From the IMG/VR virus record IMGVR_UViG_3300030110_000659, positions 1-30,442 of that record: 30,442 bases of DNA; one strand, given 5' to 3'. Origin of the DNA: a virus. Under the pieces are notes generated by a model that worked only from the letters and a program-made list of their open reading frames with translations, did not search any database and was not told the DNA's origin. Both the position numbers and the translations under genes were made by a program. This document shows, one piece after another, positions 10,656-28,782 of the stretch. Each line of letters opens with the position of its first letter. Within the stretch, counting starts at the first letter, position 1.

Positions 10656-12698
10656 ATGATTCTGACCATTGACGTAGAAAACACAGTAACCAAACGCAAC
10701 GGCAAGATGCATCTTGATCCGTTTGAACCAACCAATACATTAGTTATGGTGGGTATGCTAGATGATCTTGGTAACGAAAACCTTATAACATTCGATCACT
10801 CAGAGCAACAACCTACCACAAATGGGCGGCGTATAGTACAAGACGCATTAGACGCTGCCCATTTACTTGTTGCACACAATGCACCGCATGACTTGCTATG
10901 GCTATGGGAGTCAGGCTTCACATATACTGGTGAAATATTCGACACCATGCTAGGCGAGTATGTACTGCAACGTGGACAGAAGCAACCACTATCTCTTGAG
11001 GCATGTGCAGAACGCTACGAGCTTGATACCAAGAAACAGGACACACTCAAAGAATACTTTAGCAAGGGTATATCTACCAGAGACATACCTTATGCAGAGT
11101 TGTCAGAGTATCTATCACATGACTTACATGCTACTCAACAACTGTACAATGTTTTGATGACATCATACGAGGAATGCAGTTCACTGGAAGGAACGCTCAA
11201 GCTGACTAATCAACTGGCTATACACTTGGCACGTATCTATCAGCGTGGTTTTCAGGTAGACATGGACGCATTGATGCAAGTGCGTGATGAGTTTGAGTCA
11301 GAGCGTAGGACGCTTACCATTGCCCTTGAGGAACAGGTAGCTGACCTTATGGGTGACAGACCTATTAATCTCAACAGTCCAGAGCAATTGTCTTGGGTAA
11401 TCTACAGTCGTAAGCCTGATGACAAGAAGGTGTGGCCTGATTTGTTTGATGAACGTATGTCTGATAATGAGTACAGAGGTACTGTTAATCTGCATAGTAC
11501 TAAGTTGTATAAGCAGAAAGCATATCAATGCCATGACTGCAATGGCTTAGGCAAAGTGTATCGCACCAAGAAAGATGGTACACCTTTTGCTAAACCTAGC
11601 AAGTGTAATACGTGCGCTGCACATGGTTTTCTATACGAGAACAAACAGCAGGTTGCTGGCCTCAAGTTCTATCCACCTACACCTAAATGGGTTAGTGCCA
11701 ATGGCTTTGGTACTGGCAAAGATAACCTAACATTCCTTGAGGGCATTGCACGATCCAAGGGTATGCGTGAGGCTGAGTCCTTCTTGCAGAAGGTGCGTAG
11801 ACTATCAGCAGTAGAAACATATCTCAGCAGCTTCGTAGAGGGCATAGCAACGCATGTTAAGGGTGACGGTAAGCTACACGTTAGGTTACTGCAACACCGC
11901 ACTGGTACAGGCAGGTTGTCAGGTGCTGATCCTAACATGCAGAACATGCCTCGTGGCGGTACGTTCCCTGTCAAGAGGGTATTCATATCACGCTGGGAAG
12001 GTGGATCAGTTATGGAAGCTGACTTTGCCCAGCTTGAGTTCAGAGTTGCAGCATTCCTATCGCAGGACATAACAGCTATTGATGAGGTAACTACAGGCTT
12101 TGATGTACATAGTTACACTGCCAAGGTTATCTCTGATGCAGGTCAACCTATGTCCAGACAGGACGCTAAGGCACACACATTTGCTCCCTTGTATGGAGCC
12201 AGTGGCTTTGGCAGATCACAGGCAGAGGCTGCATACTACAAACAGTTTACCAAAAAGTATCATGGTATTGCCAAGTGGCATGAGTCTTTAGCTAAAGAGG
12301 CACTCAACACTAGCAAGATCACGACACCATCTGGGCGTGAGTTTTCATTCCCTGATGTAACCAGACGCAGGTATGGAGGTGTGACATATTTCACACAGAT
12401 AAAAAATTATCCTGTACAATCGTTCGCAACTGCTGACATAGTACCTATATCTCTGATATACATAGACAAGTTACTAACAGCAAACAAACTACGCAGTTGC
12501 GTAGTCAACACGGTGCATGATTCAATTGTAATAGACGTGCATCCACAAGAGAAGGAAAAGGTATTACAAGTAATCTCAGCAGCTAACTGTAAGCTGATTG
12601 AGATCATCAACAAACGATGGAATATTGATTTTAATATACCACTGTTATTAGAAGCAAAGATAGGCCCGAATTGGCTTGACACAAAAGACGTAGCATGA
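10656..12698 (+). CDS. Family A DNA polymerase with DnaJ-like zinc-finger insert
   Basis: 680 residues. The 3'-5' exonuclease has D6/E8 (TIDVENT), HNAPHD (74-79) and YLSHDLHAT. A central insert has C292xxC295 and C317xxC320 with Gly-rich DnaJ-like spacing (CHDCNGLGK and CNTCAAHG). The polymerase part follows: HRTGTGRLSG, motif A DFAQLEFR (D456), motif B RQDAKAHTFAPLYG (R501, K505, F509, Y513) and motif C VHDS (H621, D622). The partial DnaJ domain is the known hallmark of the HMO-2011 phage polymerase. The residue matching E. coli Pol I position 762 is Phe. It is the replicative enzyme working with primase, helicase and the SSB candidate. Confidence 0.95.
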   Translation: MILTIDVENTVTKRNGKMHLDPFEPTNTLVMVGMLDDLGNENLITFDHSEQQPTTNGRRIVQDALDAAHLLVAHNAPHDLLWLWESGFTYTGEIFDTMLGEYVLQRGQKQPLSLEACAERYELDTKKQDTLKEYFSKGISTRDIPYAELSEYLSHDLHATQQLYNVLMTSYEECSSLEGTLKLTNQLAIHLARIYQRGFQVDMDALMQVRDEFESERRTLTIALEEQVADLMGDRPINLNSPEQLSWVIYSRKPDDKKVWPDLFDERMSDNEYRGTVNLHSTKLYKQKAYQCHDCNGLGKVYRTKKDGTPFAKPSKCNTCAAHGFLYENKQQVAGLKFYPPTPKWVSANGFGTGKDNLTFLEGIARSKGMREAESFLQKVRRLSAVETYLSSFVEGIATHVKGDGKLHVRLLQHRTGTGRLSGADPNMQNMPRGGTFPVKRVFISRWEGGSVMEADFAQLEFRVAAFLSQDITAIDEVTTGFDVHSYTAKVISDAGQPMSRQDAKAHTFAPLYGASGFGRSQAEAAYYKQFTKKYHGIAKWHESLAKEALNTSKITTPSGREFSFPDVTRRRYGGVTYFTQIKNYPVQSFATADIVPISLIYIDKLLTANKLRSCVVNTVHDSIVIDVHPQEKEKVLQVISAANCKLIEIINKRWNIDFNIPLLLEAKIGPNWLDTKDVA

Positions 12699-19178: not shown

Positions 19179-22100
19179 CTACATTCTTGGCAGACTCTCT
19201 TTCTCTGCCTCAATCAATCCAAGTATCTCGTTGATGTGGTCTACGTTTCTAAAGTCTATTTCTTCATCTCTACTCATTCTAAATTTACGTATAGCAATTT
19301 TGCGTAAATCAGGATCAGCTTGACGCAATGACCTGTGTGCTATAAATATGGGTTTTGTTTCTGCTAACTTAGCTTCTTTAACTAAGTCTTTAGCCATACG
19401 TTGTAGTTTCTTTACATATGGTTTAGCTTGCGTAGCTATATGGCTTTCTAATGGTACACTATCTCTATAAGATTGTTTAGTAGATGAACTATTATATTCA
19501 TCTGTCCACATGTTTTCGTATTCTTTTAGTACTTCTACTGTAGTAGGTAGCATTGTTAATAGATATTTGTTTTCTTCTACTCTAATAGAGTTAGTTCTTT
19601 CTTTACTACTTAGTTCAAACTCATTAAATCCAAGTTTTTCTAAATATTCTGCATCTTCTGAATCACGAGTAAACTTAGTAACACCAGCAACTAAACTTGA
19701 TCCTAAACCTTTTCTCTCTCTAACACCTTCATCAGCAAAGATAGAAACTCTTACAGGATTTTCGTACTCTTTAGATGGATTAAGTATATTACTGAATGGT
19801 CTTGCATCACCTTCTACTCTACCAAGCCCACTTTGCTTGCCCATACGTTTCATTTCCATGCTAAGTTGTTCGCCAAATGTAGCACCTAATGTTACATTAT
19901 CTGTAGCTGCATCACGAGCCGTTGTTGGTCTATATCCTAAAGCTCTTTGAGCTTCTACTACTTGAGTTAAAGGTATACCCCATGTTCTAACGTAGTCAGA
20001 TACTGCCCTAGCAACAAGTCTATTCTTTCTTTCGTTTCCTGTAACGTTTTCTACCTCTGGTGTAGATAATATATCAGCCATCTCATTAGCAAACACACTT
20101 ATAAATCCTGTACCTCTACCAGCACCACCTAAAAATACATCATTAGCTTCTCTTAAATCAAACCACTCCCCAAAAGTTCCTTCACCTTCTCCTGTTTCAC
20201 CTGCTAGTGTTCTAGTGGCAGCAGCCAAAGGAACAACAGGAAGAGCATATGGGTTATCCATTAAGTTTTTAGTAGGTGCTAGTCGTTTAATAGCTTCAGC
20301 GAACCACAGAGCCTGTCTAAGAGGGAAGAAAGCTGTAGTATCTGTAACTGTACCATCATCACCACCCATTAGTTTGTAGTCAGCAGGTGCTCCTTCAGAA
20401 TTTCTGTACATGAGTGCAGCAGCAATAGCACTAACGCCTACCATATTACGAGATATATTCTGCACATCTTTGTTATCTAACTTACCACCTTTAAGACCCA
20501 TAGCACGTTTTAATATAGGGTTAAATGCACCAGCAGAGTACTGACCCATAAGTTCTATAGATTTAAACATAAATCGTGGAAATGGTGTAGTTACTACGGT
20601 TAAACCATTTCTGGTTAACCAGTTAGACGCATCTGCAAAGAATTTAATTTCAGGTTGACTAGCAAAGGTAACATCTAATGCTCTACGTGTACTGTCTTCT
20701 ATAAGTTCTTCAAATGCACGAGAACCTTTAGGTCTTACATTACTACTGTTTTGTATTAAATCTTGTATTTTACCATCTTGTAGTAAGTCGAGTAGTTCAC
20801 TACCATACTCTTTCTTTACAAGTCTTTCTAGTTCTCCCATAAAAGTACCACGACGAATGATAAACTCTTGTATTCTGTTTGGTGTATTTAAAGCACCAAC
20901 AATGTCTTCACCAGTACTAAGTATAAAGTCAACACCTTTACCTGCTATAGTTTTAGCTTCACCTCTACCTAGTGTAGTCTGATACTCGTTGACCATATCA
21001 AACATTTCACTAAACTGTTTAGAAAACTCTGGTCTATCTAATATAAAATCTGTAATGTCTTTAGCTAATTTAGGGTTAGCAAAGATACGTTGTAGTGATC
21101 TTGTACTACCTTTCCATACTTCAGGTGATGCAAGGCTTGTAGTGCCTTTAGCTGTAGCAGAAACTAAGGCTTTCATTTTACTTTTACCTTGATGGTTTAT
21201 AAACTCATCTTGCATATTAAGTATTACTGTACTAAAAACATTTTCCAGTGCTTCAGCAGGTGCTCTCATAGTAGCTGTAGCAAAGTTACGTGTTGCAGTT
21301 TTAATCATAGAAACCATACCACCTCTACGTATGTTTTCTACCCTGCGCCATGTTTTAATAGCACTACCTTGTGCTAAATCAATAGCTCTTTGTTTCTGTC
21401 TAGCAGCTTGTCCTAGCGAACCTGCCCTACGTATTTGAGATAGCTTGTTAAGTATCTTACCAGCTTCTGATCCACTACCTGTAACCATAAGCACATAATC
21501 ATCAAATGTTAATCCATACTTACTTAGTATGTCAGCAAGTTCTTGTGCATCAGGTCCATCACCATCTAACCTATTACTAACAGTAAGTTCAAATAAACTA
21601 TCTATGATACTTTTATTTTTAGGAAAATACTTAGCTCCGTATTTACTTTTTAAGTCAGCAGATATAGCTACAATAGAATCAAACTTATCTGGATCAAGTA
21701 AAGGACTTACTAGCTCTTCTACAGAAGCTAAATCACGTTCTGCTAAATCAGAACCAACAGAAGAACCACCAAAGGTATCCGCAAACTCTTCAGCAGCTTG
21801 ATCTGAATTGTTTAAAAATGCTACGGCTCTTTTGTTTTGTAACTCATTAACTTCTTCAGCTATACTTAAACCTACAGTACGTGCCTTGTCATTATCTAAA
21901 CTTAGTTTACCTTTATCATCTGCTTGAGATACTAATTTTGCACTGTCAACAACCTCACCAGAAGCATTTCTTGCACCTATACTAATTTCAAATTCTTTAA
22001 TTAAAGATTGTTTAGTCTCTGTATTTGCTTTAGCTACTTTACTAGCTAGTGTTTTCTTTTTGGCTACGTCTATTGCTTCTGCATCTTTTATAGTTTTTAC

Positions 22101-23006
22101 TAAAGCAATATTTCCTTTTACATTTTTAGTAACTTTTTTAACTATTTCTTTACCACCAATTAAACTAGCTCCAAGTTCTGCTACAGTTAGACCTAATATT
22201 GCTGCTGCCCCACCAGCATTTCCTTGATCATATAGCTCTTTAGCAACTGTAAGATTTTCAGGTGCATCAATTGCGCCAAGAACGGTACCTAAAAAAGGTG
22301 TCCAATCTGCACCACCTACAATGTAATTAACTTCGTGAAAATCATAACCTTTATCTAGTAAACCTCTTGTCATAGAAGCTCTAACTGGATTAGGATCATT
22401 GACCATATTTTTTACATTAGCAGCAATATTTTCAGATTTACCTTCATAAGCTAGTATCTGATCTAATTTTACGTCTTCACTTGTAGTAATTTGTTCTTCA
22501 GTCAACTCTCTAGGAGCACCTAATCCAGCCATAAATGGAATAGGTTTACCTTCTTCAGTTTGACCCGATCCTATTTCATCAATTTTTATGGCTTGTTCTG
22601 TGACTAATTTTGTACGTTGTTCTACAAATGAATCATAGTCATCACTATCAAGATAATTTTTTAACTGAACATCTACCTTATCTAAATAACTTTGATTAGT
22701 AGTTTTGGGTTGGGGTGGAGATAGAGCTTGTTCTGTTTCTGTTGGCTCTGTTTCTAAAGTTAGTTCATCATCTGTTGTTTCAAGATCAATAGGATCATAT
22801 GCTTCTCTATATTCATTTGACTCTACGTAGTCTTCTACTCTGTACGGAGTACTAGTAGCTACAGGAGTAGTAGACGTAGTTTCTTTTTTAGTAGAATCTA
22901 AATAATCTTCTACCCTATAAACATTAGTAGTAGGCACAGTCTGCGTTTCTACAGAAGTATCTTCTTCTTTATCTAAATAGTCTTCTACTCTGTATACACT
23001 ACCCAT
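19179..23006 (-). CDS. Large virion (internal/ejection-type) protein
   Basis: 1275 residues. The N-terminus has three YRVEDY motifs at residues 5, 30 and 55 with Thr/Glu-rich linkers, then a long acidic low-complexity part to about residue 115. The rest is mostly helical with Ala/Gly-rich, possibly membrane-active segments (AAAILGLTVAELGASLIGG; later MVGVSAIAAALMYRN) and a charged C-terminal third. No enzyme motif was seen. Size, composition and place at the end of the virion module resemble the large internal proteins that podoviruses eject with their DNA (T7 gp16-like role, by inference only). ATG 23006 is coupled to the upstream stop (TAATG). Confidence 0.6.
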   Translation of the reverse strand: MGSVYRVEDYLDKEEDTSVETQTVPTTNVYRVEDYLDSTKKETTSTTPVATSTPYRVEDYVESNEYREAYDPIDLETTDDELTLETEPTETEQALSPPQPKTTNQSYLDKVDVQLKNYLDSDDYDSFVEQRTKLVTEQAIKIDEIGSGQTEEGKPIPFMAGLGAPRELTEEQITTSEDVKLDQILAYEGKSENIAANVKNMVNDPNPVRASMTRGLLDKGYDFHEVNYIVGGADWTPFLGTVLGAIDAPENLTVAKELYDQGNAGGAAAILGLTVAELGASLIGGKEIVKKVTKNVKGNIALVKTIKDAEAIDVAKKKTLASKVAKANTETKQSLIKEFEISIGARNASGEVVDSAKLVSQADDKGKLSLDNDKARTVGLSIAEEVNELQNKRAVAFLNNSDQAAEEFADTFGGSSVGSDLAERDLASVEELVSPLLDPDKFDSIVAISADLKSKYGAKYFPKNKSIIDSLFELTVSNRLDGDGPDAQELADILSKYGLTFDDYVLMVTGSGSEAGKILNKLSQIRRAGSLGQAARQKQRAIDLAQGSAIKTWRRVENIRRGGMVSMIKTATRNFATATMRAPAEALENVFSTVILNMQDEFINHQGKSKMKALVSATAKGTTSLASPEVWKGSTRSLQRIFANPKLAKDITDFILDRPEFSKQFSEMFDMVNEYQTTLGRGEAKTIAGKGVDFILSTGEDIVGALNTPNRIQEFIIRRGTFMGELERLVKKEYGSELLDLLQDGKIQDLIQNSSNVRPKGSRAFEELIEDSTRRALDVTFASQPEIKFFADASNWLTRNGLTVVTTPFPRFMFKSIELMGQYSAGAFNPILKRAMGLKGGKLDNKDVQNISRNMVGVSAIAAALMYRNSEGAPADYKLMGGDDGTVTDTTAFFPLRQALWFAEAIKRLAPTKNLMDNPYALPVVPLAAATRTLAGETGEGEGTFGEWFDLREANDVFLGGAGRGTGFISVFANEMADILSTPEVENVTGNERKNRLVARAVSDYVRTWGIPLTQVVEAQRALGYRPTTARDAATDNVTLGATFGEQLSMEMKRMGKQSGLGRVEGDARPFSNILNPSKEYENPVRVSIFADEGVRERKGLGSSLVAGVTKFTRDSEDAEYLEKLGFNEFELSSKERTNSIRVEENKYLLTMLPTTVEVLKEYENMWTDEYNSSSTKQSYRDSVPLESHIATQAKPYVKKLQRMAKDLVKEAKLAETKPIFIAHRSLRQADPDLRKIAIRKFRMSRDEEIDFRNVDHINEILGLIEAEKESLPRM
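22821..22997 (-). repeat. Three YRVEDY repeats spaced 25 residues apart
   Basis: Residues 4-12 (VYRVEDYLD), 29-37 (VYRVEDYLD) and 54-62 (PYRVEDYVE) of the 1275-aa protein. The spacing is exactly 25 residues (75 bases), while the linkers between them do not match each other. This looks like short docking motifs rather than a folded repeat domain. Confidence 0.85.
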
Positions 23007-24172
23007 TAGTATACAAACCCGAAAGTTGTTTTAATAGCCATACCTACTTTAGGTTTTCCTCCTGCCTCTTCAGCCTCATTAATATCGGGAGTTTTGGGAT
23101 CGTCTTTTACAAAATATGTGTATCTTATAACAGCACCGTCAGGAAAACTAGATGCCATACTTGGCAAGTCTTCTTCTTTTATTTTACCATCACCCCCAAA
23201 AAACATATTTGTTTTTTCTTTTATTTTTTCTATATAACCACTTTTATCTTCAGCAAACTCAGCAGAGATAACATTTAATTTATTTCTTGCATGTACCCCA
23301 TATACGTTTGGTTCTACATATTCTTTTCTAATAGCCTCATTAACACGACTTCTATAAAAAAGAACATCATGTTCATTGCCTGTTCTAATTTTTTTATATT
23401 TTGTTGTTACATCTTCTTCATACAAACCTACATAGTTAGCAAGTACACGTTGACCAGCGTTATCAAAAAGTACATCTAGTGCCTTACCATCTGCTAAAGA
23501 CCAATCTGTTTCTTTTTTATCTGCACCTGCTATTTTAAATTCTTCATATAACTTTAATGTATCTTTCTTTAGTTCTAATAAAGAAGCATTATCTGGATCA
23601 TTAAGTAACTGCGTATCTATTTCAATTAACCTAGCTTGATATGTTTTAGCATCTGTTTGTATTTTAGGATCAGGTCTAGTAAATCTTTCAGCAAAAGGTA
23701 CAGCCTCTTTTGCAGCAGTTAATTCAAGATTAATTTGTTCCATTTCTTTTTTAGCTACAGCAGGACTAGTTTGTGATCCTCTTATATCATCTATAGAAAA
23801 AGCATATTTACTTTGTACACCTTTTTTTATTTTATCCATAGGAAGACCATATCCTACAGAAGCCGAAAGACCATCATTTGCAAATGCTTCTGCTTGCGAT
23901 AATGCGTATTGAGCTTTTTGTGTACCATTACTTAGTATGTCTACCACTTGCTCAGGTTTATAATGTATAGATAACTTTTCGGCTAACTCCGCAGCAGCTT
24001 CTTCTGCAGCACGTCTTTTATCACCACGAGTTCTTCTATTAATAGCGTCTTGTTGTTTTTGAAATCTTCTATCCCATGACTCATCTTCACGAGCTTGAGC
24101 TTCTTCAGCCTTTACTTTATCTACAATAACATCTGCAAACCCACCTGCAAACTGCATAAAATTAAATGCCAT
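23006..24172 (-). CDS. Probable virion protein
   Basis: 388 residues. The opening FNFMQFAGGFADVIVDK is hydrophobic, followed by a long charged coiled-coil region (about 20-70, EEAQAREDESWDRRFQKQQD onward), then further helical parts and a beta-like end (KVGMAIKTTFGFVY). No family recognised. It lies between a small conserved virion-module gene and the large 1275-aa protein and is coupled to the latter by TAATG, so the two are likely made together; a partner role in the internal virion structure is an inference. Confidence 0.55.
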   Translation of the reverse strand: MAFNFMQFAGGFADVIVDKVKAEEAQAREDESWDRRFQKQQDAINRRTRGDKRRAAEEAAAELAEKLSIHYKPEQVVDILSNGTQKAQYALSQAEAFANDGLSASVGYGLPMDKIKKGVQSKYAFSIDDIRGSQTSPAVAKKEMEQINLELTAAKEAVPFAERFTRPDPKIQTDAKTYQARLIEIDTQLLNDPDNASLLELKKDTLKLYEEFKIAGADKKETDWSLADGKALDVLFDNAGQRVLANYVGLYEEDVTTKYKKIRTGNEHDVLFYRSRVNEAIRKEYVEPNVYGVHARNKLNVISAEFAEDKSGYIEKIKEKTNMFFGGDGKIKEEDLPSMASSFPDGAVIRYTYFVKDDPKTPDINEAEEAGGKPKVGMAIKTTFGFVY

Positions 24173-24173
24173 A

Positions 24174-24695
24174 TTAAGCTCTCCTTGCCATTAGTCCTGT
24201 AGCTAGTGGCTCACTAGCCTCTGCAGGTTCTTCTTCCATCATAGGCTCTGTGTCCTCTACAGGTGCATCACCTGCAGCTTCCATCTTAGCCTTAACCTTC
24301 TTCATAGCTACAGCTATAGTGGAGTCTCTAAACTTATCTTCATCAGGGTCTTCTAGTTCTGTACCCATAACATAGTCAACACCTTCTTCATCACCTACAT
24401 AAGCTAACATCTCCATGATTACTGGTAGTATAAGAACACCTACATCAATAGTATGCTTGCCCATCATAACACCATTACCCTGTAGGGCATTAGCAATAGA
24501 TGTAAGTGGCACACCTAGTTCCATAGTCTCTGCTATTTGATCACGAAACAGTGGGTTCATTATGCGTTCAGCATAGAACTGCATAGCGTCATCTACATTA
24601 GTGTACTGTGCAGGTCTTTGCCAAGGGTACTGACCTAGTTTACTAGTTAAACTCTGGCCTGGGATATGTCTTTCAAAGTTAGGCTCTTCCATCAT
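24174..24695 (-). CDS. Conserved virion-module protein with PGQSLT motif
   Basis: 173 residues from ATG 24695 (an in-frame GTG at 24716 would add seven). The N-terminal HIPGQSLTSKLGQYPWQRPAQ followed by DDAMQFYAERIM is, from memory, a recurring signature of a small conserved protein in marine phage structural regions. The middle is helical with LTSIANALQGNG and ILPVIMEMLAYVG; the tail is acidic and Pro-rich, ending LATGLMARRA. Role unknown. The start overlaps the preceding gene's end. Confidence 0.6.
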   Translation of the reverse strand: MMEEPNFERHIPGQSLTSKLGQYPWQRPAQYTNVDDAMQFYAERIMNPLFRDQIAETMELGVPLTSIANALQGNGVMMGKHTIDVGVLILPVIMEMLAYVGDEEGVDYVMGTELEDPDEDKFRDSTIAVAMKKVKAKMEAAGDAPVEDTEPMMEEEPAEASEPLATGLMARRA

Positions 24696-24891
24696 ATAAT
24701 TTCTTTCTTTGATCACGTACTTGATTAAACATTTCCTGTGCTCTTTCGGCAGGTTCTAATGTTTTCTTTTTTTGTTCAGGTTTTTTACGCATCATACCCA
24801 TAAGACCAGTACTAACTGGCTCTATAGGTTTAATCATAGTTCTGTTTTTCATGTATTTTATGTATGCTCTTCCAGCAGGATTAGTTTCCAT
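24679..24891 (-). CDS. Small basic virion-module protein
   Basis: 70 residues, Lys/Arg-rich (METNPAGRAYIKYMKNRTMI then MMRKKPEQKKKTLEP), ending in a charged helix (AQEMFNQVRDQRKKLYDG). AGGAAA lies upstream. It contains STGLMGMM, close to the TGLMARR end of the next gene's product. It lies directly downstream of the 1291-aa gene and overlaps the next. Function unknown. Confidence 0.55.
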   Translation of the reverse strand: METNPAGRAYIKYMKNRTMIKPIEPVSTGLMGMMRKKPEQKKKTLEPAERAQEMFNQVRDQRKKLYDGRA

Positions 24892-24906: not shown

Positions 24907-27900
24907 TTAACTACCAAGACCAAAACTACCAAGTATGCCACCTGACAAATCACTTGTAAGTAATGTTGCTGCAAGCTGACCTAATGAGTTAGAAGCAGAT
25001 GCATCTCTTGATGCTTTAGCCGCATCTGCATCAGACATTGCATCTAATTGGGCTATGGCATAGTTAGCTGCACGATCTGCTTCATTTTCAGAAGCCTTAT
25101 ATGCATTATCCATTTGATCACCGTAATGTTGCCACATATTATCGTATGCTTGGTTCTGAATGTCAAGAGTATTCTTAGCATTAATTTCATTTGCTCTGTT
25201 CTGTGCTGCAGTATCTGCAGTTGCTACTTCTCTACGCCACTGTGCATTAGACTGAGCAATTACAAGTTCGTTCTGTGCGTTAAACTGATCAGCAGCATTA
25301 GATTGTGCTACATTAAACTGTTCCATAGCATTTTCTTGTCCAGCATTAAACTGTGATATAGCTGTCTGTTGTGCTTTATTAAACTGATCTACCTGTGTTT
25401 TTAAGTTAGCATTGAACTGATCTACTTGCATCTCTGAGGTAGCATTAAATTGCTCAGATGCATTTACAGATGCCTGATCAGACAGTAGTGTTTGCTGTAC
25501 AGCTTGTGCTTTAAATATAGCTACTTGTTGTTCGTTACTTAAATTAGCTAAGTCAAGCTGTAAGAAGTTCTGTGCATTAAGAACTTGTGCCTGTTGAGCG
25601 TTAGACAGTTCAGCCATATCCATAGATGCAAAGTTAGCTGCATTTTGTAAGGTAGCTGCCTGTGTAGTGTTAAGTTCTGCTAGTCCAATAGACTGCATCA
25701 AGGATGAGTTATGTAACACTTCTTGTTGATCAGAAGTAAAATTAAGATTAGCTGCATCAGAGTAACGTGCAGCAGTATTAATAGCTACCTGTTGATCATT
25801 GGTTAATACTTGACCTTGCAAGGCAGATGCAAGATTAGCACTAGTAATATAAGATTGTTGTTTTGCACTAGCATCAGCTAGGTTAGTTTGCAATTCACCT
25901 ACATTATCTTGCAACACTGCTTGCTGTCTGTTACTCAAGTTTATGTTAGCTTGTTCTGCATACCTAGCTGCAGTTATAATATTAGACTGTTGTGTATTGT
26001 CTAATACTTTACCTTGTAATGTAGTTCTAATCTGTGCATTAGCTAGTTCTACAGACTGCCTATTAGATAAGTTAACTTTCTGTAGGTCAAATGCTTGTAC
26101 ACTATTCTGTAAGTTCATCTGTTGTTCGTTACTTAGGTTTTGTAAAGACAAACCTTGTTGTGCAGCAGCATTAGCAAGTGATACCTTTTGTTGGTTGTCT
26201 AAGTTAGCCATGCCCATTGCTGCATACACTTGAGCATCTTGTTGTGCAATAGGTAAGGCACTTTCCATAGCGGCCTGTACGATAGCTGCAGCAGCCATAG
26301 AGGACGCTGCCATACCACGAGATAGCATAGCCTCATTAGCCGCACGTATGGCCCCTGCAGCCCACGCTGGAGTGCCATTATCAAAGCTCTTCATAAGGCT
26401 AGATAGTTGACCTTGTACAGTTGCCTGTGCGGTAACGTCACCTTGCATAGCTACAGCAAGTGTACCACTAGAAACAGTAAATGCTTCCATCTTTGCAGCT
26501 ATGTAATCTGTAGTTTCACCTGACAAACCAGTGTCAGTTTCTTTCATTGCCTGTACACTTTTCATTATACTGTCTGAGATTTTTGCAGGTGGTGGTAACT
26601 CTTTAGGATCAACTGTGCTTGTCTGAGCTACAATCTTTTTTAATCTGTCAGATATAGAAATGTTAGCTTCTATTGCTTTTAAATCTTTGCCTTTAACTTC
26701 TGCAATTTGTTTAGCTGTAACCTCTAAATCAATAGGATTAACTGCACGTTCAATACGATCTGCAGCTACTTTAATTGCTTCGTCTGCTTGTCCTTCTGCA
26801 CGTATAGTGTCTGTCTGTCCTACTACTTCTCGTGTAAGAGTATCTTGTGTCTGTGCCTCTAAGTTTTTTAACTTTTCTTCTGCTGTATCAGTTATTTCTT
26901 TGCCATCATATGTTTGTTTTGATACAACATCAGGAGCATCAGCATCAAATGATTTAGCTTTTGTAGTAACACCTTGTGCTACACTATCTAATTGACCTGT
27001 ACCTTCTTTAATAAATTGATTATCTTCTACTTTAATTTTATCAGCTATAACTTTAGTACCAGCTTCTTCAGTAATAGCAGATGCAGGGTCTTCAAATCTT
27101 TCTTTAGTTAAATCTTTAACAGTTTTTTGTGTAGATTGATATACAGGAGCAAGGTCAGCTTGTCTTTCCATATCATCTGCAAGTTCTTCTACTTTACTAT
27201 CTAATAGTTCTTGATAGTATGAGTTAACACGAATTTCATTACCGTCATCATCTAATACAGGTTTACCTTTATCATCTAACAGTGTTGTATCAGGGTCTTT
27301 TTTTGCTAAGATATTTAATCTGGAAACTTCTAATTTTTTTGATTCAATATTTTTTATAGTTTTATTATATTCTTCTTCAATATTTTCTATATCTGTAGTA
27401 ACACCTTTTGCACTTTCATCAGCAATGTATCTGCGATACGTATCCTGATTATTTATAAATGCTTTATTTTTTGCTTCATAATTATTTTCTTTTAATTTAG
27501 ATATTACTGGAGTAATTTCATCAGTAAGTGTTTTTTTAGCGTCATTTAAATTGTATCTATTAACAACTGTAGATGTACCATCTTCAAAAGTAAATATCCA
27601 ATTTTCATTACCACCTGATACTTCATACTTATCTGGATTAGGAACTAATTTTTCTGTACCATCAAGACCTATTAACTTGTCAAACATTTCATCACTAGGT
27701 AACTTACCTGATTCCAAAAGCATATCAATGCCTTTTTGAGAATGAGGATTCCAAGTAAGACCTTCAAGCATTTCATCAGTATTAACTTTTTTAGGTGCTC
27801 CTTCTTGTGGATCATATCCAGTAGCATTATTAGTTTTTGCCCACTCAAGCAGTTCTTGCATACCTTTAAATTCTGTTTCAAGAGGTCTACCTGTGCTATC

Positions 27901-28782
27901 TGTTAATGTATAAATAATACCATCATCTGTACCAGAATCGTATGATGACAAAGAATAAGAGTCATCTATTGTATTAAATACAGTTGGATACCTAGTAATT
28001 TTTCTAAATTCTTTACCTTTTGTTACAAGGCTACCATCCATATTTCTTTCATTACCTGCATCATCAAAATATGTACTGTAGTCTGGTTCTTTTTCTTCCT
28101 CTACTGCAGGAGTAATTGCTGTATCTACAGGTGTAGTAGTTGTTGTATCTACAGGTGTAACTTGTTCTTGTTGTGCTTTAGCTTTTGTACCTGCTAGTGT
28201 ATCAACACGAGTTTGTGTAGGTGCTACTGTTGTTGTATCTCTAGGATCATCTATACCTGTAACAGGTTGTTGACTAACTCCTGTGCCATCTGAAGTAAGT
28301 GACGGACCATAACCTGTAATGTTACCTTGACTATCATATATAGGAACCATATCAGCAGTCTGATAGCCTTTTGAAAGTTGATCTTTTGCAATTGTTTCTG
28401 TAGATGTACCTGCTGGTCCTAAACTAGCTTGATAGGTATCACTTTGAGGATCGCCTGTTCCCATTTGTGGTGTTGTACTTGCAGGTGTAGTTGCATCAGG
28501 TCGTGTCTGACTAAAGGTAGGAACTAAACTACCATCACTATTTCTTAATCTACCTTCATTATCAAAGTATTGTGAATAGTCAACGTCACCACCATTAGCA
28601 AAGTTTTGTACCATGCCACCATTAACCATCTCAAGTGCTTTCTGTTGATACATACCCATCTGTTGCATCTTGTCAGGATTTTGATTTAAGTATTCGTTAA
28701 ACCCCTGCATATCTCCTTGATACCCTAGAGTACCAGCAATACGTTGCATAGCTTCAGGTTTAAATCCTTTAAATTGTTTCAT
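24907..28782 (-). CDS. Large repeat-containing virion protein
   Basis: 1291 residues. The N-terminus has NGGMVQNFANGGD (54-66), a motif common in marine phage structural proteins, then a Thr/Pro-rich linker flanked by two copies of a DYSxYFDxxGxxRNxDGSLV segment (68-87, 234-253). The middle (about 420-800) is charged and helical. Residues 860-1101 are eleven units of about 22 residues, and 1111-1187 are seven exact 11-residue units starting QFN. The end is Ala/Ser-rich (SNSLGQLAATLL). The pattern suggests a very long helical rod. Likely a virion component, possibly internal or ejected; no enzyme motif was seen. Confidence 0.65.
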   Translation of the reverse strand: MKQFKGFKPEAMQRIAGTLGYQGDMQGFNEYLNQNPDKMQQMGMYQQKALEMVNGGMVQNFANGGDVDYSQYFDNEGRLRNSDGSLVPTFSQTRPDATTPASTTPQMGTGDPQSDTYQASLGPAGTSTETIAKDQLSKGYQTADMVPIYDSQGNITGYGPSLTSDGTGVSQQPVTGIDDPRDTTTVAPTQTRVDTLAGTKAKAQQEQVTPVDTTTTTPVDTAITPAVEEEKEPDYSTYFDDAGNERNMDGSLVTKGKEFRKITRYPTVFNTIDDSYSLSSYDSGTDDGIIYTLTDSTGRPLETEFKGMQELLEWAKTNNATGYDPQEGAPKKVNTDEMLEGLTWNPHSQKGIDMLLESGKLPSDEMFDKLIGLDGTEKLVPNPDKYEVSGGNENWIFTFEDGTSTVVNRYNLNDAKKTLTDEITPVISKLKENNYEAKNKAFINNQDTYRRYIADESAKGVTTDIENIEEEYNKTIKNIESKKLEVSRLNILAKKDPDTTLLDDKGKPVLDDDGNEIRVNSYYQELLDSKVEELADDMERQADLAPVYQSTQKTVKDLTKERFEDPASAITEEAGTKVIADKIKVEDNQFIKEGTGQLDSVAQGVTTKAKSFDADAPDVVSKQTYDGKEITDTAEEKLKNLEAQTQDTLTREVVGQTDTIRAEGQADEAIKVAADRIERAVNPIDLEVTAKQIAEVKGKDLKAIEANISISDRLKKIVAQTSTVDPKELPPPAKISDSIMKSVQAMKETDTGLSGETTDYIAAKMEAFTVSSGTLAVAMQGDVTAQATVQGQLSSLMKSFDNGTPAWAAGAIRAANEAMLSRGMAASSMAAAAIVQAAMESALPIAQQDAQVYAAMGMANLDNQQKVSLANAAAQQGLSLQNLSNEQQMNLQNSVQAFDLQKVNLSNRQSVELANAQIRTTLQGKVLDNTQQSNIITAARYAEQANINLSNRQQAVLQDNVGELQTNLADASAKQQSYITSANLASALQGQVLTNDQQVAINTAARYSDAANLNFTSDQQEVLHNSSLMQSIGLAELNTTQAATLQNAANFASMDMAELSNAQQAQVLNAQNFLQLDLANLSNEQQVAIFKAQAVQQTLLSDQASVNASEQFNATSEMQVDQFNANLKTQVDQFNKAQQTAISQFNAGQENAMEQFNVAQSNAADQFNAQNELVIAQSNAQWRREVATADTAAQNRANEINAKNTLDIQNQAYDNMWQHYGDQMDNAYKASENEADRAANYAIAQLDAMSDADAAKASRDASASNSLGQLAATLLTSDLSGGILGSFGLGS
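25222..25452 (-). repeat. Seven 33-base (11-residue) QFN repeats
   Basis: Residues 1111-1187 of the 1291-aa protein read as QFNATSEMQVD, QFNANLKTQVD, QFNKAQQTAIS, QFNAGQENAME, QFNVAQSNAAD, QFNAQNELVIA and QSNAQWRREVA, each exactly 11 residues with no gap. An 11-residue period is the hendecad of right-handed or straight coiled coils. Confidence 0.9.
25480..26205 (-). repeat. Eleven 21-23-residue LSNxQQ repeats
   Basis: Residues 860-1101 of the 1291-aa protein. Units start with NLSNxQQ-like motifs (NLDNQQ, NLSNEQQ, NLSNRQS, LDNTQQ, NLSNRQQ, DASAKQQ, LTNDQQ, NFTSDQQ, ELNTTQA, ELSNAQQ, NLSNEQQ) and are 21, 22 or 23 residues long. The unit beginning at 927 resembles the one at 993, 66 residues on, including a shared AARYxxxAN, so triplets of units were duplicated. 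Confidence 0.85.

Follow-up and report, generated by a model that had tools for sequence, protein, structure and literature searches.

A small-medium-large order of genes has been described for podoviral ejection clusters (PMC8954989). In phage SU10, the virion contains gp20-24 but no longer does so once the genome has been released, which identified these products as five ejection proteins (PMC9509320). Both in SU10 and in Salmonella phage 7-11, gp20-24 form a five-gene cluster ending the structural module of a genome with an SU10-type portal. The T7 (gp14-gp15-gp16) and DEV (gp73-gp72) ejectosomes comprise helical proteins encoded in the small-medium-large order. The closest described relatives of the locus examined here are the short-tailed phages (PMC6918029) of the HMO-2011 type, for which a DNA polymerase with a DnaJ-type insert and a B12-dependent ribonucleotide reductase (RNR) have been described (PMC9038755).

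The window, that is, the whole stretch of 30,442 nucleotides analyzed here (IMG/VR record IMGVR_UViG_3300030110_000659), belongs to a 57,078-bp record of a marine short-tailed phage. It encodes a family A DNA polymerase into which a DnaJ-type CXXCXGXG region is inserted (10656-12698, plus strand), and the phage also encodes a B12-dependent RNR. Elsewhere in the record lie genes for a major head protein, an amidase/Hc3-like protein and a portal that matches Pfam SU10_portal (PF23899, E 1.4e-25). The minus strand of the window harbors a homolog of HMO-2011 gp25 (phage1322_25), which shares with it and with its CRP, HTVC, CHOED, MQM1 and phiM6 counterparts the homology of the C-terminal half and an identical gene order; this family carries 3 to 26 repeats, in contrast to exactly 11 in the window protein. 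The features of the locus are as follows.

19179-23006, minus strand: fast-diverging gene of a 1275-aa protein, gp16-like by position and size only
23006-24172, minus strand: gene of a 388-aa protein, gp15-like by position only
24174-24695, minus strand: gene of the 173-aa partner protein, gp14-sized
24679-24891, minus strand: gene of a 70-aa protein, flanked by the repeat gene and the 173-aa gene
24907-28782, minus strand: open reading frame of the 1291-aa repeat protein, the HMO-2011 gp25 homolog
24910-24990, minus strand: Gly-rich, mildly hydrophobic C-terminal tail
25033-25251, minus strand: region over which the 11-residue register and the predicted helix continue, residues 1178-1250 (QWRR...TADTA...MWQ...ENEADR)
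25252-25449, minus strand: six exact 11-mers (FNA...Q), residues 1112-1177
25450-25479, minus strand: 10-residue linker DQASVNASEQ (1102-1111) separating the 22-mer and 11-mer arrays
25480-26205, minus strand: eleven gap-free 22-residue units, residues 860-1101
26206-26430, minus strand: conserved helical domain QGQL...PAWAAGA...RGM..SS...ALPIAQQDA (alignments and AlphaFold2), residues 785-859, immediately N-terminal to the repeats
28582-28782, minus strand: N-terminal module FKPEAMxRIAxxxGYxGDM...GGMV

The structural module closes with the repeat protein followed by a small protein and by proteins of ~150-215, ~300-950 and ~630-1625 aa, so that the repeat gene lies in a small-medium-large cluster ending this module. 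The order is kept in HMO-2011, CRP, HTVC, CHOED, MQM1, phiM6 and Slicky01. It matches T7 and DEV in the genes downstream and in the helical character of the proteins, and SU10 and 7-11 in the cluster ending the module and in the portal type; no 22/11 repeat protein is known from the T7 and DEV ejectosomes, and here it is an extra upstream component. The tested SU10 and 7-11 proteins had no detectable sequence homology to the window cluster outside the Peptidase_S74 (S74) domain discussed below, and on profile comparison we rejected any homology between the neighboring genes and the cluster proteins of 7-11, SU10 and H6/1. In most HMO-2011-type isolates the 173-aa protein and the repeat protein are conserved together: the CRP-3 relative of the 173-aa protein was found in 23 phage records, nearly the same set as that of the repeat protein, compared with 4 records for the 1275-aa protein. 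The latter carries YRVEDY(L/V) three times within its first ~65 residues (~22800-23006, minus strand; VYRVEDYLDK, VYRVEDYLDS and PYRVEDYVES), repeats which the family searches made did not explain and which resemble a repeated short linear motif. In HTVC033P (L033 2433-4547), the structural module also includes a putative ferrochelatase gene and two genes for 2OG-Fe(II) oxygenases, which immediately precede the repeat gene on its upstream side.

By tblastn, relatives of the repeat protein were detected in 27 phage records (HMO-2011, the CRP and HTVC phages, CHOED, MQM1, phiM6 and Slicky01, i.e., the HMO-2011 type and kin), and other family members used as queries recovered a practically identical set. 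Scans of IMG/VR added at least hundreds of further relatives among the matches listed. A supposed occurrence in T4-like cyanophages found no confirmation by tblastn. The protein is annotated as hypothetical in nearly all relatives, and the 'huntingtin' label of the MW202701 homolog (L029 7023-9614) is apparently a misannotation caused by composition. The window protein yielded zero matches to Pfam and PHROG, a PDB sequence search with the protein or its alignment returned nothing significant, and a Foldseek search gave no match.

Full-length members range from 459 to 1556 aa, and their alignments revealed a variable N-terminal half, with conservation in the domain preceding the repeats and in the region from the 11-mers onward. 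The FKPEAMxRIAxxxGYxGDM...GGMV module, which within the phage collection is confined to this family, is N-terminal in HMO-2011 and internal (~residue 450) in CRP-1. Relatives (L001, L035, L036 and L058) differ by exchange of the C-terminal module: some have a Gly-rich tail only, and in others this tail is replaced or followed by Peptidase_S74 or by a helical domain with the motif CWVAREVYG. This last domain was present by motif in 40 of the 152 members, was modeled by AlphaFold2 (AF2) in HMO-2011 with a pLDDT of 83-90, and in tblastn against the phage collection gave no match beyond HMO-2011 itself. S74 ends the homologs of CRP-3 (E 7e-6), CRP-212 (7e-7) and L058 (3e-10), and a domain search found it absent from the window protein. 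As for the tail of the window protein, its maximum 19-aa Kyte-Doolittle mean (~1.05) is not above that of the helical core, so that its candidacy as a membrane segment was dropped as not decisive.

The self-identity of the 1291-aa protein peaks at lags of 22, 66, 44 and 11 residues, confirming a real repeat that proved cleaner than first described. The original prediction had counted eleven units of 21-23 residues; the number eleven holds, but every unit is exactly 22 residues long without gaps, the array spanning 242 residues with remainder 0. The mean pairwise identity of the 22-mers is 27.4%, against 10.2 +/- 0.8% in 5000 shuffles (z 21). Period 11 is raised inside this array as well (20.8%), indicating that 22 is really 2 x 11, as had been proposed. 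Of the seven gap-free 11-mers announced, six are exact and of the FN type, with an identity of 41.8% against 10.2% shuffled (z 14), while the seventh (SNAQWRREVAT) is weaker; the 11-residue register runs on to about residue 1250. The period keeps an unbroken phase within each array, and the expected richness in Gln, Asn and Phe was borne out. At the DNA level, Tandem Repeats Finder (TRF) reported only two short 33-bp arrays in the repeat region; this divergence shows the repeats to be old, neither a recent nor an assembly-made expansion. The Thr-rich N-terminal part of this gene also contains a 24-bp tandem repeat (28111-28159, minus strand; 2.0 copies, 92%), which is more recent than the protein repeats. 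Proteins of the apolipoprotein A-I type and other hendecad proteins likewise carry 22-mers made of two 11-mers. The likeness concerns the repeat pattern; in place of charged lipid-binding faces, the window protein has a QQ pair, an S/N/T/D cap and a composition rich in Q and N.

The repeat number was compared among relatives, as the original prediction had suggested. Block length was taken as the distance from the PIAxxDA motif before the repeats to the WRR motif after them. It equaled 5 mod 11 in 125 of the 132 measured relatives and 5 mod 22 in 122; by inspection the remaining 7 are regex mis-anchors, leaving all 125 correctly anchored sequences in the same phase, and a class of 8 mod 11 obtained with the first anchor set was an artifact of the same kind. 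The numbers of units were mostly 6 (89 sequences) and 11 (21, the window included), followed by 16 (3), 21 (2) and 26 (2), with 3, 3.5, 4, 5.5, 10 and 11.5 as rare values. The usual step is thus five units, equal to 110 residues or 330 bp. This quantization by 11, 22 and 110 residues across relatives is new here. In the 26-unit members, self-identity reaches 0.44-0.45 at lag 110 and 0.39-0.42 at lag 220, compared with ~0.27 at lag 22, and DNA identity at the 330-bp lag is only ~0.5, which argues that the 110-residue blocks are not recent duplications. In a tree built from the sequence outside the repeats, which has some long branches and a bootstrap that is not fully settled, each of the 16-, 21- and 26-unit classes requires two or more changes, also when only well-supported branches are counted. 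The unit number correlates with the N-terminal length (rho 0.63), weakly with the size of the 173-aa-type neighbor (rho 0.19) and not with that of the 1275-aa-type neighbor; the correlation with the 388-aa-type neighbor is moderate and negative (rho -0.41), in a statistic that ignores relatedness.

The structural evidence separates the two arrays. Two AF2 monomer models, of a window fragment and of an HMO-2011 fragment, reached low to moderate confidence (mean pLDDT 57 and 60, pTM 0.23). Over the 11-mers and beyond, the window fragment is predicted as a single unbroken helix (fragment residues 373-486, 114 aa, pLDDT ~60-75), and so is the HMO-2011 fragment (residues 248-370, 123 aa, with a pLDDT of 74-83 over the 11-mers). 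For the 22-mers, both models give interrupted helices with a pLDDT of ~40-55. Across 730 unique 22-mers, position 2 is L/F in 92%, position 3 is S/N/T/D in 98%, position 6 is Q in 88%, position 7 is Q in 78%, position 10 is L/V/M/I in 99% and position 13 is A in 69%. The residue preference at position 3 resembles that of a helix N-cap, and a cap there would be consistent with helices breaking or kinking where units meet. Hydrophobic power at period 3.67 amounts to 7-10% in the same 730 units, about chance, and in the 11-mers to 49% on a LIVMF scale and 12-18% on other scales. The continuous hendecad coiled coil of more than 300 residues originally envisaged is thus partly supported, the models speaking for it in the 11-mer part and not in the entire stretch: mostly helix was indeed predicted, but in the 22-mers at low confidence only, with breaks and no hendecad stripe.

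Several observations bear on what this protein does. The suggestion that the rod lines an ejection channel agrees with the adjoining ejection-like genes, but outside S74 no homology to characterized ejection proteins was detected. A profile-profile comparison against the ejection proteins of 7-11, SU10 and H6/1 returned nothing, the PHROG 'DNA ejection' and 'virion structural' matches of relatives disappear once S74 is removed, and the CRP-212 match to a PHROG 'DNA ejection protein' was accordingly discarded as rod homology. S74 also ends genes annotated as DNA ejection or injection in 7-11, APT65 and H6/1, annotations which are themselves transferred; in 7-11 it sits on one cluster member, as in CRP-3 and L058, and the best match of the L058 domain outside the family is the H6/1 putative ejection protein. 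A literature search for virion proteomics found none for any relative. From gene order, we consider it an evenly balanced proposition that in HMO-2011-type podoviruses the repeat protein belongs to the interior of the virion and is probably ejected. Similarly middling confidence attaches to an ejection-protein-like function, which we infer from synteny rather than from established descent from ejection proteins.

On this proposal, the protein would travel inside the head, leave it together with the 173-, 388- and 1275-aa products, and help to form a temporary conduit through which the genome crosses the periplasm. Its N-terminal part, which varies, would lead into the conserved helical domain. 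Next would come a modular rod made of the 22-residue helical repeats, with a length set by the count of 110-residue (5 x 22) blocks; after it would come a fixed, straight hendecad helix of ~115-120 residues (~17 nm at 1.5 A/residue), probably oligomerizing. S74 domains are trimeric chaperones, and their presence in relatives leads us to guess at trimers.

The main competitor, unlikely in our estimate, is a trimeric tail fiber or other external appendage, with the repeat rod as a shaft of varying length and a C-terminal S74 chaperone folding it in some relatives. S74 is best known from tail fibers and spikes, variation in shaft length is common among fibers, and the repeat gene comes after a set of tail genes. 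The best argument comes from arithmetic: at a rise of 0.15 nm per residue the 11-mer helix measures ~17 nm and each 110-residue block adds 16.5 nm, so that a 26-unit rod would reach ~100 nm as one straight helix and exceed a podovirus head. The longest members would then not be packaged straight, being either folded back or external. Nevertheless, the predictions show no receptor-binding or beta-structured region from the end of the helix to the C-terminus, a variable N-terminus with a conserved C-terminal half is the reverse of usual receptor-binding fibers, and the gene sits within an ejection-like cluster. The nearest S74 domains outside the family are moreover mostly ejection-annotated where a function is named, the exception being a tail spike/chaperone label. 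A channel or ejection role, unproven, is favored over a fiber. It is improbable, although we retain the idea, that the protein is an internal head or core component, packaging- or scaffold-like and remaining in the head, organizing DNA or internal proteins with its rod on the portal or on spooled DNA. In related systems the portal is indeed surrounded by helical core proteins, e.g., DEV gp72 (PMC10925440), and the ~3.3 nm rise of a 22-residue helix is near the B-DNA pitch (arithmetic only); this reading, however, leaves the Gly-rich C-terminal tails and S74 unexplained, and all five proteins of the SU10 cluster are ejected (PMC9509320).

What the repeats themselves are for allows further alternatives. 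The low AF2 confidence of the 22-mers and their weak amphipathic period would suit a flexible spacer under low selection, expanding by recombination without a defined rod, and recombination between homologous 110-residue blocks could alone maintain the 110-residue steps. We regard such a spacer as very improbable: the common phase of the 125 anchored relatives and the near-invariant positions 10 (99% hydrophobic) and 3 (98% S/N/T/D) imply strong purifying constraint, and DNA has diverged while protein is conserved. The tape-measure-like element of the original prediction fares poorly with short-tailed relatives, and a fixed-length ruler is unlikely because the unit number spans 3 to 26. For the 110-residue step, a neutral account, by which lag-110 misalignment is favored after one duplication of that length, is as open as a structural one. 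As a rather unlikely version of the latter, the protein may be an adjustable rod with a quantum of 110 residues (five 22-mers, 30 hendecad turns), to which lineages would add, or from which they would remove, whole quanta (6, 11, 16, 21 or 26 units), because only whole blocks, e.g., as closed up-and-down hairpin layers, would keep the flanking domains registered; the block number would tune the length of the ejected conduit or rod.

Together, these results define a candidate family, assign it a partner in the gene of the 173-aa protein, and yield a strict rule, namely a block length of 5 mod 11 with 110-residue steps, which is directly testable by structure. If the rod is ejected, the natural series of 3 to 26 units would offer a ready set for relating ejectosome length to the host envelope.
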